Source: Isoetes taiwanensis
Taxonomy: Eukaryota; Streptophyta; Lycopodiopsida; Isoetales; Isoetaceae
Length of the DNA stretch: 64,000 nucleotides
Assembly: GCA_021234155.1 (NCBI GenBank)
Contig: JAJEKV010000073.1
Location: 2,388,001 to 2,452,000 of the forward strand
Direction: 5' to 3'
The notes below the pieces were generated by a model. The model was given only the letters and a program-made list of their open reading frames with translations. It ran no database searches and had not been told where the DNA came from. Shown in pieces: positions 38,593 through 63,668 of the stretch (within the stretch, counting starts at the first letter, position 1; every line of letters starts with the position of its first letter). The position numbers were made by a program, and so were the translations under genes.

Positions 38593-38776
38593 AACAATAT
38601 GTTTTGTAAAGGTCGTGTAAAAACACAATAACTGTGTGCCAAAAGACTACTCATTCAGGTGGAATTCCTTCTAGAAGAAGGAATAACAATATGTTTTGTA
38701 AAGGTCGTGTAAAAACACAATAACGATGTGCCAAAAGACTACTCATTCAGGTGGAATTCCTTTTAGAAGAAGGAAA
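38593..38776 (+). repeat. Two-copy tandem repeat, 92-bp period
   Basis: Units start at 38,593 and 38,685 (AACAATATGTTTTGTAAAGG) and differ at a few positions (CTGTGTG against CGATGTG; CTTCTAG against CTTTTAG). It lies inside the Helitron. Confidence 0.9.
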
Positions 38777-41140: not shown

Positions 41141-41400
41141 CACTACAAGAGGATAGGCTTTTTGTGTCAAGCCCTGCGTCACTACCTTTTAAGGTTCGTC
41201 AGATTTGTGTCAGAAGCTTTAAAGTGACACAAATTAATTTGACTGCGTCAATACTTGTGTCAATATAGTTGTATCAACAACAACGTCATTTTTGTCACAT
41301 ATTTGTGTCAAAATTTTATTATTTTTTCATTAGCATTTGTAATGACGATTACATCACGTATTGTGAAAGGATTGTGACATAATTTAAGTAAGAATAACAA
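41141..41400 (+). repeat. CACTA terminus and subterminal repeats
   Basis: CACTACAAGAGGATAGGC begins at 41,141, with the same 11-base start (CACTACAAGAG) as the element at 57,496. About 260 bases of TGTGTCA/TGACACA-rich subterminal sequence follow. It lies 3' of the tnp2 gene, as expected for an element end. The matching opposite end was not found between 45 kb and 57 kb, so this element is probably truncated or rearranged. The Transposase_24 fragment lies outside this end and may belong to another copy. Confidence 0.7.
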
Positions 41401-41414
41401 TAAGTTTATGTCCA

Positions 41415-44330
41415 CTATAACATCGCTAGTTCTAAAGTTTTAATATCTGATGGTTGAGGTAATGAATCATTTGCACCTTCATTATCCCATATAGGTGTAG
41501 TATTGCCTTCGATGGTATCGAAGTGTGATACATCAACGTCCCTTTCTATTACAAGTGTGAAATCCTCTGCTATATGCTCTGGTTGCCGATCTTCATCATC
41601 AGATATTGGCTCAATGTTGTCTTCAATTGCAGGATTTCCAATCACACGACGAGATCTTGATTGAGAATGTATAACGATCCACCAATCATTATTGTCAGGA
41701 TCTGGATGAAAGAAGACTTGCTCAACTTGATTTGGAAAAACAAATGGCTCATCCATATCCACTAGCACTTTTGTGGAGTCAATCTCCATGAATCCAGAAG
41801 CATGTTTTTATTGTTCTTCCACGACCTCTATAAACAACTCTGAACCACTTTGTTTTCAAGACATTTACATGAAATGTCCGATATTTTAACTCAATGATAT
41901 TGGATATGGTTCCAACATAGCATAATTCACCATCAATAAGGTTACGATCCCTACTGCTTGCTTGACTCTTTTGCTCAAAGTGTGCCATGATTCCAGAGTC
42001 AAAAGTAACTCTATGTTTATCAACATTACTGTTACGGAAGTGTTGTCCATAAATCGCGCCTAAATAACAAAAGTGTAATTAGCAAAATCAAGTTTTCCAA
42101 ACTTATTATATTTTCCAATATATGATTTTTTGATGAAAGAAAATAAATACTTTCATTTCATACCTTTTATTGCATCCAATAGCAATCTCGTAATCATCAT
42201 CTGGAATGACTTGTCCACTATCTCTTGCTTCATCCATACGAGCTAATAACCAATCATTGGTCATGGTGTCTGCCAAAGCACATTGTTCAATTGTTGAACC
42301 CCGTCTGTGTGAGCCATTCCTTCGTGCTTCCTCCTTTGCACGTTCATACATGTCTCGCCAAGGTTGCAAAGTTGTTGTGTTATTTATGATGAAGGCATTT
42401 ACAGAACGAAACATTTCATCAGTTAGATTCTGCTCCACACCATTGCCTTGTAAAACTTCCGATATAATCTCATCCGCCTCTTTTTCCTCCCACATTTTAA
42501 GTCCATCCGGATTGCATGCAATGGTCACATCATTCAAGAAGAAAAGAGTTTCTTGTATGAGATGACCTTCGGCCATACACCCTTCTGGCTTAGCCATTTG
42601 GCGTACAAATCCTTTGAGCACCTTCATATAATGCTCGAGGAAGAACATCCATCGTGCAGGGGCAGGTCCAGCTAATTTAATCTAATTTGGAATGTGTATT
42701 AATAAGTGCACCTACATCAATGTCATCATCTCATCTCATTAGTTAGAAAAATATATGCATGTCAACATGGAAAAAAATGGGCGTAAGGATAATGTCATAC
42801 TTGTAGATCTAAGAAGCTAGTAGGGAACTCCTTTTCAATATCACATAAAAGTAAAATAGCCATCTTTGTAATCTCAGAGACATCAATTTCCTTTGAGGAT
42901 ACCCATCTCACGAATTTTCCTAATCGGTATATGATACTCCTTATTGCCGGTGTTAAATAGTTTCCAATGACGCATGGAAGAATATGCTACAACAACAAAC
43001 AATAGTTCAACGCGTGCAACTATGTAATTCCAATCATTAAAAGTGAAGAATAAATTACCTGAAGAAATTTGTGCCAATCCCTATTTGTCCAACGTTTTGA
43101 TGGCAGCATCGCCTCACGCCCACGTGCATGATGCTCTTCAGGCAAATATTTCTTGTGACCAAAGTATATTTGCTTCTTGAGATGTTTGGATCTATACGAT
43201 GTTAGGCTAGTTCCACATGAAGAACAACCACATGCTCCACTCGTTTGTAGACCTGTTGTGTTACAAATAACAAAATTTTTACTATGATTTTTGAACAATC
43301 CAAAGATTTCTAAACCATGCCATTTGTAAATAGAACTTACCGGATGCCACAGAAAAGCCTGGATAGTCATGAATAGTGAAACGTAGCATACCATGTAGCG
43401 TGAAATCATGTGGCTCTCTTGAAATATCATACATATGAATCCTCTTCCATAACAATTCCAATTCCTCTATCAAAGGTTCCATATAGACATCCATATTTTT
43501 AACTTGATATTTTCCTGCAAAATGCATACACGTTTATTGGTAAATGGATTTGAACGACTTCAACAACTGCATCTTCTCCATTCAATTCAAGTCAAATCAT
43601 TTCAATTCAATTCATATTTATAGATAGCTATTGAGTAAAAGCAAAATAAGTACCTGGAACAATCAACGTCAACATGATATGACCAGGTTTGGTAACCATC
43701 CACGGTGGAATATTATAGTTCACAACAGCTATTGGCCACACACTATGTTTTGATGACATAGATCCCCAGGGGCATATTCCATCGAGTCCTAGTCCAAGTC
43801 TAATATTGCGAGACTCCAATTTAAATTGTGGCCGTTTTTCTTCGATATTTTTCCACGACTCTCCATCTGCAGGCATCCTCATTTTTCCATCAGTACTACG
43901 GTTATTTGCATGATAATCCATAAATGAGGCAAGGGATGAAGATCGAAACATATGACGTAAACGAGGAATGATAGGCATGTATCGCAATGTTTTCCTTGCC
44001 ACCTTCGACAGAGACGATGTTGTTGCTCCAACCAACTTTATGTTGAAGGTTCAAAATTAGCAAACACGTGGCAAGATGAGACACGCGCGCATTTGGATAC
44101 AATGGGGTTGTCGCCTCATTGTGTAGGAATTCTGCCTTATCCCTAAATCCATTGTCAAACTCGTGATTTCCATCATCATAATCTTCTACCTGTTCAGTAA
44201 TTGAAAAATAATTTGTAATGGTCTCATGTATCACGTCTCCGCCAATGAAAGTACTGTTTAAATTTGATGGTTCTCCATTCAATGATTCGTCACCGGAAAA
44301 CTGAATATATAACATCATGGAGTAGTTGCC
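41415..44330 (-). pseudogene. CACTA/EnSpm tnp2-type transposase, broken
   Basis: Exons in order: EATTPLYPNARVSHLATCLL with LNLQHKVGWSN (~44,130-44,040); LRHMFRSSSLASFMDYHANN, then KMRMPADGESWKNIEEKRP (~43,960-43,830); ESRNIRLGLGLDGICPWGSM, HSVWPIAVVNYNIPPW (43,810-43,690; DDE-type Asp in LDG); MDVYMEPLIEELELLW, TLHGMLRFTIHDYPG (~43,500-43,360); GLQTSGACGCSSCGTSL, KKYLPEEHHARG; GFVRQMAKPEGCMAEGHLIQ (~42,600); and a DUF4216-type end (VYRGRGRTIK; DEPFVFPNQVEQVFFHPDPD, ~41,800-41,680). Order and wording match the Transposase_21 and DUF4216 domains. Frame changes and missing exons make it nonfunctional. Confidence 0.85.
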
Positions 44331-44463: not shown

Positions 44464-45139
44464 CTACACATTTTTTCTGTCCTTATGAGGCCTTCCACGA
44501 GGAACCATAATAGGACCCCCATCTCTAAGACGTTGAACTCTACGAGGAATGGGCCTTTTCCAATTATAATGAATTAACAACTCCTCACCAGGTTTTAAGC
44601 TACGTGTAGCACAAACAAGAACATAGGTCCCAACAATGGGACCGTCCATGTATTGTGGAATAGGTTCAATGCAATCTACTTCCACAAATTCTGCATTAGG
44701 AAGCACACCATAAATGCCACAAGCACTATTAATTAATCCTGTAACGTTGCCATGCAATTGTGGCCTCCCATCTCTCTCAATGATGCTGCATTTGATGCAA
44801 TCCCATATGTTGACATGCTTGGCATCCATAAAGCCAATTCGTCTGCTCAAGCCGATATTCTTCGTCACTTTGTTGCGGCCTATTTTGCCACATGCCATAT
44901 CTTGCCTCATGTTCTTGTCGAACATGATAAGAGCGTGTAGCGCTACCACGACATGTATTGCACCAACAGCTTTCACAGTTGAGGTGCAATGCCTCAACGG
45001 GGTTATTTCTAGGTTTCTTTCTGTGTCTTCGGCGGGTCGATAAAGAAGATGAAGATGAAGACGAAGGTGAAGACGAGGCTGCACCGCCTGGTAAATAATC
45101 ATTTCCACTGCTGCTATTGCTTGTGCCACTATTGTTCAT
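44464..45139 (-). pseudogene. 5' end of the CACTA gene region with zinc-binding start and SET-domain segment
   Basis: From the ATG at 45,139 the frame reads MNNSGTSNSSSGNDYLPGG, a Ser run and a basic patch, then HLNCESCWCNTCRG...HVRQEHEARYG, similar in layout to the transposase-associated Cys/His domain that starts tnp2 proteins. After a frame change near 44,880 the other frame continues IERDGRPQLHGNVTGLINSA, VLPNAEFVEVD and YVLVCATRSLKPGEELLIHY through NWKRPIPRR to a stop at 44,464. This strongly resembles the C-terminal half of a SET domain (NxxRxxNxxxxPNAEF...A.R.IkpGEELLxxY). The N-terminal SET half is not seen. Capture of a host SET exon, or a transposon-borne SET domain, are both possible. 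Confidence 0.6.
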
Positions 45140-46300
45140 AGTGAGAAAACAACTGCGAAAATGCCAACAAAAACATGAATGTGCTAAAAAGTTGCAATAC
45201 GCCAATATAAACCTAGTAAGATCTATATATTGCAAAATGTTACAACCACCATAATGGAAAAATAGCAACAATGCCAACATGCAACAAGAAATTAGAAATT
45301 GTAATGAATGTTAGCAACTGAGAAATTAACTCAAAAATTAGCTAGTTTGTCACTAAAAATATGAATATAATGACCTTAGCAATGTTATTAACCTCCGAAA
45401 TAATGACCTTATTAACCTTCAAAGTATACTTTTATGAAGACTCTAGCAATATTATATTATTAACTTTAAAAATACTCAAGATGCTTATATCAATGATTCA
45501 AACCATTGCCTACCTATGTTTCAATATTTTTCTACCTAGGGTCAATATTTTCTATAGACTCACCAGTTTTATAAACTCAAGGGTATTAACTTTTCTATGG
45601 TTCAATGGTTCGATTTGAACGAGTTACCTAAGGGTACTTTATTTTACAATGGTTCGATTTGAAGACATCTCGAGTTACCTAAGGGTACTTGATTTTACAA
45701 TGGTTCGATTTGAAGACATCTGAATTTACCTAAGAAGACCACCGGAAGCTCAACCGACGAGATTGGATGGGAGGGAAACAAGATTCCATTGAATGTATTG
45801 GATAGGAGGGAAACAAGATTCCATTGACTGAATGTATGAACCCACCGAAAATGAAAATGCATTCCAAGATTAGAAACAAAACCTGGCGGCAAACTTGGTT
45901 CAGTCTCAAATTCGACCACTCTCTCGGATTCGACCTCTCTGCTCTCCTGCTGTATCGGCCATCTAGCGCCTCTAGCTTGCTTCCTAGAAGTTCTTCAATC
46001 AAACCAGTAAGTTTCTATTGCATCTATACTTTCCATTTTAAGCATTGGTTGTGACTGTTTCAGTGGCTGGAGGGCGAGACAAAGGTAAGGGCAAAGTCCA
46101 TGCTGGGGATGAAAGTGACGACCATGCGAGAGAGGATCGTTTGACCAGGTTTTTTGATAATATGCCAAGTGATTTGTACCAAGACTTCTTTGACGAGATG
46201 GAGAAACGAGTAAGAAGAGATGGAGAAACGAGTAAGAAGAACTCTTGAAATTAAGGAGAAGGAACCGAGAAACAGCCAAGAACAACAAAGAAGAGAAGAT
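45140..46300. other. Gene-poor stretch with small tandem repeats
   Basis: 45,621-45,715 holds a two-copy tandem repeat of 51-bp period (GAGTTACCTAAGGGTACTT onwards). 45,770-45,830 duplicates GGGAGGGAAACAAGATTCCA. A forward tract at 46,045-46,248 (MPSDLYQDFFDEMEKRVRRD) is protein-like but unidentified, possibly an exon of a degraded gene. Confidence 0.45.
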
Positions 46301-46323: not shown

Positions 46324-47464
46324 CTATTTAAATGCATTTGTGGTTGCATCCTGTTTGCCATAAAATACTCTTTTTCCAATGTTGTTGCAAGTAAGGCTGG
46401 CTCCTGATTTAGAGGCCCTTTTGGTTATAGACCTTTCATGAGTCTTGTATACAAATCCCTGTTGTGAAATCAAGAGGCCGCTCCATGTAGAGGTGTTCAT
46501 GCTAATCACCATGCCAAAGCTTCCAAACCCTACTGGCTGCCAAAGCAATTACTGCGTGAACAGTAGCCGTCCTGACTACTAGAGCAAACACCAATGTTGG
46601 TCCTTGCAATATGCAATGTTCTATTCTCTTCTACTAAAAGCATATCTAATGCATGAGCAAAACTCAATAGATTAGAAAGGACCAACCAAACATTTGGTCT
46701 TGCTGCGCTTTTTGGTGGATTTTGGGAGCTGGAAAATATCTCTGATATGTCTGACCAAAGATGATAGGCTGAATCATCAAGAGCTGGAAAATATCTCTGA
46801 TATGTCTGACCAAAGATGATAGGCTGAATCATCAAGATTATTATCTGTAAAAGAATAGTTCTATTTTCCTCAATGTTTGCTTGCAGAGGGCTCCTTGTTG
46901 GTGCTGCAGTGCAGTGTAAGTATTTGCATGGGGCTGTAGAATAGGGTGTTGGACTGTTTTCAGAAAAGGATGCTGGACAAAGCGATTGTTAATCTTTGAT
47001 TCTACATCACAGAAAATAGTGCTTGCATTGAAGCTGAGGCAGGGTCCATTAGAAGATTTCAAGCTTGCATTTGCTTCTATGGTTACACTACCGGATTCTA
47101 AACAGCTGCATAACCCTTTACCTGTGCAGATTCCATATGTTCCACAAGTCATGGGAAGCTGACATGAGCTACTCGTAGTGCTAGATTGAGCATAATCTTT
47201 CTGCCATGTTGAGCTTGAATCCAGATAATACGAAACAAAATCTCCATCACTATTCAACCTCAAAAACTGTAAAGTTCCTTTTAAACTAGATGCAACCTGC
47301 CATGTCTGCCCTGTATATGTTACAGCAGCTTGGCAGCTCATTAAGGCCTGATCTATTGTTCCTTCAGAAACTAAGCTCTTCACAAAATAGGGCTGAGCAG
47401 TTTTGCCAGAAGAATTGAGCATTTGCAGCAGGGTGTAAAATCGGTACTGGGTAGCAGAAATCAT
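46324..47464 (-). pseudogene. G-type lectin receptor-like kinase ectodomain, fragment
   Basis: The minus-strand ORF 47,464-46,841 has TWQVASSLKGTLQFLRLNSD, GDFVSYYLDSSSTWQKDYAQ, then CQLPMTCGTYGICTGKGLCS with C. This is the S-locus glycoprotein/EGF region of plant G-type lectin receptor kinases (LxLxxDGxxxxY...W...CxLPxxCGxYGIC...C.C). It continues, broken, to 46,324, with a 55-bp exact tandem duplication (46,726-46,835) and readable tracts such as SSSQDGYCSRSNCFGSQ. No kinase domain and no complete lectin start are present. This is a host gene fragment. Confidence 0.65.
46726..46835 (+). repeat. Exact two-copy tandem repeat, 55-bp period
   Basis: GAGCTGGAAAATATCTCTGA onwards at 46,726 is repeated at 46,781. 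The two 55-base copies are identical by eye and lie within the lectin-receptor fragment. Confidence 0.93.
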
Positions 47465-57495: not shown

Positions 57496-57524
57496 CACTA
57501 CAAGAGAAATGTACCTATAGTGTC
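57496..57524 (+). repeat. Left CACTA terminal repeat
   Basis: CACTACAAGAG... with TATAGTGTC at 57,516-57,524; preceded by TCA. Confidence 0.85.
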
Positions 57525-63640: not shown

Positions 63641-63668
63641 GACACTATACCCCCATCCTCTTGTAGTG
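63641..63668 (-). repeat. Right CACTA terminal repeat
   Basis: Inverse of CACTACAAGAGGATGGGGGT followed by ATAGTGTC; TCA follows on the plus strand at 63,669. Confidence 0.85.

Follow-up and report, generated by a model that had tools for sequence, protein, structure and literature searches.

The SET-transposase locus

The window, by which is meant the whole stretch of 64,000 nucleotides of Isoetes taiwanensis DNA that was analysed, carries on its minus strand the remains of a CACTA transposon in which the C-terminal half of a SET domain lies directly before exons of the transposase. The original prediction had placed the SET half at 44464-45139 and the same-strand tnp2 exons immediately after it, and both statements are borne out by the features of the locus:

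44843..45139, minus strand: exon 1, with an ATG, a Ser-rich stretch and a transposase-associated-like zinc finger (CWCNTC...H...H); open reading frame 44777-45310
44464..44842, minus strand: SET exon, C-terminal half, ending in a separate TAG stop; Pfam SET at 44563-44775
44010..44300, minus strand: first tnp2 exon; acceptor 44301/44300, phase 0, placed by eye by comparison with the acceptors of the relatives L015 and L016
43628..44050, minus strand: tnp2 frame, PF02992 positions 1-82, E=1.4e-30
43282..43533, minus strand: tnp2 frame, PF02992 positions 80-140, E=1.5e-12
43020..43466, minus strand: tnp2 frame, PF02992 positions 135-187, E=4.6e-7
42106..42681, minus strand: DUF4218 part of the transposase, E=1.2e-12
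41415..41807, minus strand: DUF4216-like part of the transposase, E=2.8e-5 (below the cut-off)
41141..41171, plus strand: 3' terminal inverted repeat CACTACAAGAGGATAGGCTTTTTGTGTCAAG; near-identical ends close L015 and L016

The minus-strand frame 44464-45135 encodes 223 amino acids followed by the TAG stop and contains the motifs LINSA, VLPNAEFVEVD and LKPGEELLIHY. Residues 121-191 (window 44775-44563) match positions 51-105 of the 105 positions of the Pfam SET profile with E=3.6e-4 and 21.3 bits, slightly below the Pfam gathering score of 22.4 and marginal when taken alone. The profile search that had been recommended for this region, with Pfam SET, Transposase_21 and DUF4216, found all three, SET and DUF4216 below the cut-off, and the doubt that the segment might bear no similarity to SET is dispelled by these matches. 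The Cys/His start of the segment had been likened to the transposase-associated (TA) domain. The likeness stands (see below), with the correction that the finger lies in the open reading frame 44777-45310, different from that of SET.

Comparison with L015 and L016 explains the change of frame. In the window copy, 618-634 bp are missing between exon 1 and the middle of the SET domain (junction 44843/44842), including the splice donor of exon 1, and a second gap of 37 bp lies within the SET exon at 44773/44772; these gaps join exon 1 to mid-SET out of frame. Further downstream, a gap of 291-292 bp (about 290 bp) at 44009 corresponds to the exon that comes next in L015 and L016, and gaps of 444-464 bp (relative to L016 and L015) near 43076 and of about 870 bp near 41440 were also found. 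The window element is an internally deleted, probably dead member of its family.

The CACTA end at 41141 closes the element on its 3' side, and the CACTACAAGAGGATAGGCTTTTTGTGTCAAG end occurs in 27 exact copies genome-wide, including the window's own (reversed control, 0). No 5' end of the window element was established. A CACTA end at 63668 was considered and rejected, as its sequence is that of a different family of high-copy ends and the flanking triplets differ (TAA vs TCA); among the ends listed of the 173 in that family, no pairing with type-A ends was seen by eye. This end (63651-63668, minus strand) represents a separate CACTA-like family with 173 ends genome-wide at ≤1 mismatch (control, 0). 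A further CACTACAAGAG-type terminus (CACTACAAGAGAAATGTACC) at 57496-57507 on the plus strand perhaps marks another insertion. The surroundings also contain a 92-bp tandem pair (38593-38776, 96% alike), a 51-bp tandem duplication 0.5 kb upstream of exon 1 (45620-45721, 98% alike) and an identical 55-bp tandem duplication 1.6 kb upstream of exon 1 (46726-46835).

The SET domain and its motifs

Full-length relatives in the same genome settle the identity of the domain. Five of six exceed the Pfam cut-off of 22.4 (24.4-29.6 bits, E 9.5e-7 to 3.9e-5), namely L051 (9.5e-7, profile positions 1-104), L015 (2.2e-6), L047 (5.9e-6), L022 (2.4e-5) and L034 (3.9e-5), and the sixth, L018, falls just under it (E=2.0e-4, 22.2 bits). 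Because these relatives exceed the cut-off, the match in the window is not due to chance. In alignment A4, whose 12 members include some near-duplicates, each member is matched at E≤0.01 (best 8.8e-8) by Pfam SET and by that family alone. Compared with the PDB, the A4 profile retrieved 13 sequences at E<1, with a weak best E of 0.012, among them KMT2A/2B and EZH2, an effector SET of Legionella and a chain deposited as 'Eukaryotic huntingtin interacting protein B'; all 13 we take to be SET proteins, in part from the names given by the depositors. The narrower A1 profile yielded six sequences at E<1, of which one, a hexon-interlacing protein, is not a SET protein, and a single-sequence phmmer search of the PDB with L022 gave no match.

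The canonical cofactor and catalytic motifs of SET domains are GxG, RFINHSCxPN (with NHxC) and GEELxxDY. Three motifs show no variation across the 12 sequences of A4, namely A-G-x-x-L, G-N-x-A-x-x-I-N-S-S and E-x(4)-Y; the Tyr of the catalytic position and the cofactor-motif Asn are among the residues retained. The His of NHxC is replaced by Ser in all 12, and for this reason catalytic activity is not assured; the effector SET aligned from the PDB likewise lacks the His.

A stretch before SET is conserved in L018, L022, L034 and others, reading GCWEGxLPxMLEEFxYWG in clades A and B, and contains no Pfam domain; F-x-Y-W-G-x-x-Y is the sole part of it common to all 12 members of A4. Behind SET, the window copy has the tail VPRGRPHKDRK (44473-44505, minus strand), an AT-hook-like motif, where the B clades have VPYGRK or VPLGRP.

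Copies and clades in the genome

The genome from which the window comes (1,658,258,908 bases in 1110 contigs) was searched with SET proteins of three clades. The window segment found at least 151 matches (150 of 717 candidates scored), a clade C SET at least 154 (150 of 1852) and a clade B2 SET at least 156 (150 of 1359); the three lists overlap, the numbers are lower bounds, and pieces of one copy may have been counted apart. Many of the listed copies contain stops. Type A copies are mostly >80% identical to the window segment, those of B1-B3 about 46-57% and those of C about 38%; for clade D, a comparison of L051 with L015 gave about 39% identity to type A. Between clades the SET sequences are about 30-60% identical, with invariant motifs. 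A one-off capture of a SET exon by the window copy was rejected in view of the number of genomic matches, their division into several diverged clades and their linkage with tnp2. Scans of viral contigs and prokaryote genome contigs with two short patterns each revealed no relatives; distant relatives may escape such scans because the patterns are few and short.

Linkage of SET with tnp2 and a complete element

Linkage was determined on every eighth tnp2 match, beginning with the fourth, of 150 listed (167 reported), using a SET profile made from clades A-D. A SET match, in some cases partial, was present on the sense strand within 2.6 kb upstream in 12 of the 19 sampled tnp2 matches; at E<1e-3, the antisense and shuffled controls each gave 0/19. 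The other seven had no SET inside 2.6 kb. L060 and L071 lack SET and have a TA domain shortly before tnp2 (PF13963, E=5.7e-7 and, below the cut-off, E=2e-5), and L070 has a tnp2 of similar type, with no TA domain seen. A TA-like exon is still present in L072 and L075, which have no SET, the clade C-like L066 has a listed SET about 6 kb upstream, and the sequence of L074 is cut just before tnp2. The second doubt attached to the original prediction, that all other CACTA copies might lack the segment with a clear separate insertion boundary, is answered by the many other copies that carry SET, although there is a SET-less lineage. A cruder tally against a short Pfam SET list of 72 matches paired 6 of 150 tnp2 matches. 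Some copies used elsewhere in this study were picked, L028-L047 from the matches of the window segment on account of their long open frames, and L020, L021, L023 and L024 because a tnp2 was already listed nearby; neither their intactness and dN/dS nor their linkage with tnp2 is unbiased, and the sample of 19 provides the unbiased linkage figure.

A complete element of 14,172 bp (C1018:35784377-35798548) has an identical terminal inverted repeat of 44 bp, is flanked by the target site duplication TAA/TAA and encloses both a SET ORF and tnp2 exons. In the AGxGL stretch its SET, L017, is unlike L018 and L019 in a way that suggests a frameshift; its tnp2 matches PF02992 with E=2.8e-29. The 31-base end of this element occurs in 85 exact copies genome-wide (reversed control, 0). 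Neighbouring ends that face inward at a distance of <60 kb form 11 pairs, of which 4 (14, 22, 26 and 58 kb) enclose one of the 21 SET places taken in from the clade B2 list and 7 enclose none. For L019, L021 and L022, a 5' end like that of the complete element was absent from the 7-9 kb inspected. Assignment to CACTA/EnSpm rests on the tnp2-type transposase in the window and on the terminal inverted repeat and 3-bp target site duplication of one relative. In the scanned frames of the window and L017, no Harbinger-type transposase was detected; the transposase domains matched were of the tnp2 type.

Sequence identities in SET and in tnp2 go together: the two matrices are correlated across 12 loci (Mantel r=0.873, p=0.0001). 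The original prediction had left a choice between capture of a methyltransferase exon and a family-wide accessory domain. Linkage in 12/19 sampled matches, occurrence in diverged clades, an element bounded by terminal repeats and target site duplication, and low dN/dS in B2, B3 and one pair of A (see below) favor the accessory domain.

Gene structure

A single polypeptide comprising SET and transposase is not supported, because a conserved stop follows the SET tail and tnp2 begins at a fresh splice acceptor. In 26 A/B ORFs, the stop lies 4-15 residues past a conserved GRK or GRP, and TAA, TAG and TGA are all used. The 30 SET ORFs were taken from stop to stop, which makes a terminal stop a matter of construction and only its place and kind informative.

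Splice sites, all read by eye, agree in phase. The donor of exon 1 is AG|GT in phase 0 in ten copies of the SET lineage (L015-L019, L021-L023, L072 and L075, with L009 and L016 counted as one place) as well as in L060 and L071, the two copies that lack SET; L010 and L013 carry the mutated form GAGATA. Before the SET exon, 18 of 20 copies have an AG acceptor in phase 0; at the spot inspected in L046 and L047, none was seen. The tnp2 exon likewise opens at AG in phase 0 in 13 copies of the SET lineage (L001, L002, L015-L019, L021-L024, L051 and L072, with L002 placed by its tnp2 only) and in L060 and L071; in L019 and L072 a stop follows this acceptor. In L060 and L071, the intron between TA and tnp2 has the same phase and, by manual count, about 70 nt, too few to accommodate a SET exon. 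In 5 of 11 copies (L015, L016, L023, L024 and L051), an in-frame ATG is located a short way upstream of the conserved tnp2 start, and an independent start of tnp2 is therefore possible in them; this ATG is absent from L001, L002, L017, L018, L021 and L022.

An hhalign comparison of the exon 1 finger with the TA domain found in the SET-less copies gave a probability of 85 and E=6e-6, with profiles built from only 6 and 2 sequences; Pfam itself made no TA call on the finger of the window or of the SET-lineage relatives scanned. The arrangement suggests that the SET exon is an alternative terminal exon inside the first intron of the transposase gene, served by a common zinc-finger exon.

Selection and history

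NG86 dN/dS of the SET region, calculated from pairs that are not independent of each other, had a median of 0.134 in B2 (119/120 pairs) and 0.152 in B3 (5/6 pairs) and was 0.105 in A (1/1 pair). The preceding linker in B2 gave 0.49 (91 pairs). In B1 (0.60, 6/6 pairs) and C (0.55, 5/6 pairs), both with low dS, the SET exon looks relaxed. These medians omit pairs in which dS was not estimable or was ≤0.02, i.e., 1/120 in B2, 1/6 in B3, 1/6 in C and all A-B3, B2-B3 and B3-C pairs, and the choice of part of the ORFs for their long open frames favors low values. With this bias in mind, the SET exon looks to have been preserved by selection.

The SET tree and the tnp2 tree each separate A/B from C and D, with several low supports; in the tnp2 tree, which is unrooted, the SET-less lineage makes up a third branch. 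This topology is consistent with a single gain of SET before clades A-D split. The putative host-gene SET domains L053 and L054, with which the transposon SET was compared, scored 9-12 bits against the transposon SET profile, and no host parent gene was found.

Proposed mechanism and alternatives

Observed are the domain, its linkage with tnp2, its conservation, its separate stop and the phase-matched splice signals. In the reading we prefer, at just short of even confidence, the window contains a broken copy of a CACTA (EnSpm) lineage with a SET exon, in which one gene would encode a self-targeted, anti-silencing methyltransferase. The fuller account, offered with somewhat less assurance, is that the lineage gained the SET exon in the first intron of the transposase gene before the clades diverged and that splicing yields a transposase and a self-targeted histone methyltransferase, which share the finger and are kept by selection. 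The SET exon would occupy a phase-0 intron that separates the exon of the TA zinc finger from those of tnp2. With TA joined to SET, the product would be a TA-SET protein that ends at the stop of the SET exon; with SET skipped, it would be an ordinary TA-transposase. Because both proteins would have the same N-terminal finger, the SET enzyme would reach the element's own ends. Bound there, TA-SET is predicted to methylate histones or another lysine target on the chromatin of the element, and the mark may keep the element expressible against host silencing, by analogy with transposon-encoded anti-silencing factors. Judged from sequence, such elements may be equipped with a chromatin-modifying enzyme of their own.

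The assumption of one gene can be questioned. SET and tnp2 might be two independent genes with separate starts, as suggested by the SET ORF's own stop and by the ATG ahead of tnp2 in L015, L016, L023, L024 and L051. Arguing against this arrangement, which we regard as rather doubtful, are the copies without such an ATG and the position of the TA finger in front of SET, which would leave the transposase without a finger, unlike that of the SET-less L060 and L071. Much more improbable is a passive capture, in which a host SET exon was taken up once and carried along without function. The broken window copy, the many listed copies with stops and the dN/dS of about 0.6 in B1 and C would fit a functionless passenger, but not the low dN/dS in A, B2 and B3, even though the picking bias applies to it, nor the congruence of SET with tnp2, the presence of SET in diverged clades and the invariance of its motifs at about 30-60% identity between clades.

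The action of a functional SET protein could also differ from that proposed. SET enzymes can write repressive marks, and a finger common with the transposase would direct them to the element ends, such that the protein might act as a repressor that controls copy number: silencing marks on the copies would limit transposition and the host would survive. This we consider improbable; the matches in the PDB, with KMT2/MLL-type and effector SET domains above EZH2, are too weak to decide on the kind of mark. Alternatively, SET may methylate a non-histone target, e.g., the transposase, or serve as a non-catalytic module that binds chromatin or protein. The Ser in place of the NHxC His throughout A4 and the conserved F-x-Y-W-G-x-x-Y before SET, outside any Pfam domain, would agree with such a role. 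It is nevertheless unlikely, given the invariant Tyr, Asn and A-G-x-x-L and the aligned effector SET, which also lacks the His.

An anti-silencing SET protein would have consequences beyond this element. To our knowledge, few plant cases of transposon-encoded anti-silencing have been described. With a multi-clade plant CACTA family that has a conserved SET exon and a seemingly shared finger exon, self-written histone marks would become testable, and the diverged clades offer natural variants for such tests. Some annotated SET genes in genomes of this kind may be transposon genes.

Comparison with known systems

Ordinary CACTA/EnSpm transposons encode tnp2 (Transposase_21) with DUF4218, DUF4216 and Transpos_assoc. 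The elements share with them tnp2, DUF4218 and DUF4216, the CACTA termini and the 3-bp target site duplication and differ from them by the SET exon added between the TA-like finger and tnp2. SET on DNA transposons is already known; for SET in CACTA/EnSpm, no report was found among the open-licence papers listed, and neither 'CACTA' nor 'SET domain' occurs in the main text of the Isoetes taiwanensis genome paper (PMC8566536). PMC12730594 cites Kojima and Jurka (Repbase Reports 2014) for a SET histone methyltransferase encoded by Phytophthora transposons of the HarbingerS and MuDR types. These are likewise DNA transposons with a SET protein, but they belong to other transposase superfamilies and another host group. 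The same paper describes fungal DNA transposons, including EnSpm, that encode TET/JBP dioxygenases, proposed to provide an escape from silencing, and names the VANDAL (MuDR) anti-silencing protein of plants. The fungal elements also bring an epigenetic enzyme, but it is a dioxygenase that acts on methylcytosine in fungi, in place of the SET domain found here.

VANDAL supplies the working model for the SET-CACTA elements. The VANDAL protein is a transposon-encoded, sequence-specific anti-silencing factor of plants; that system is not known to include a SET enzyme. SETMAR combines SET with a transposase in one locus, as here, but it is a single domesticated host gene, SET fused to a mariner transposase, and not a mobile family. 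For two proteins from one CACTA transcription unit there is the precedent of En/Spm, which produces TNPA and TNPD by alternative splicing; in the family studied here, the second product would be the SET protein.
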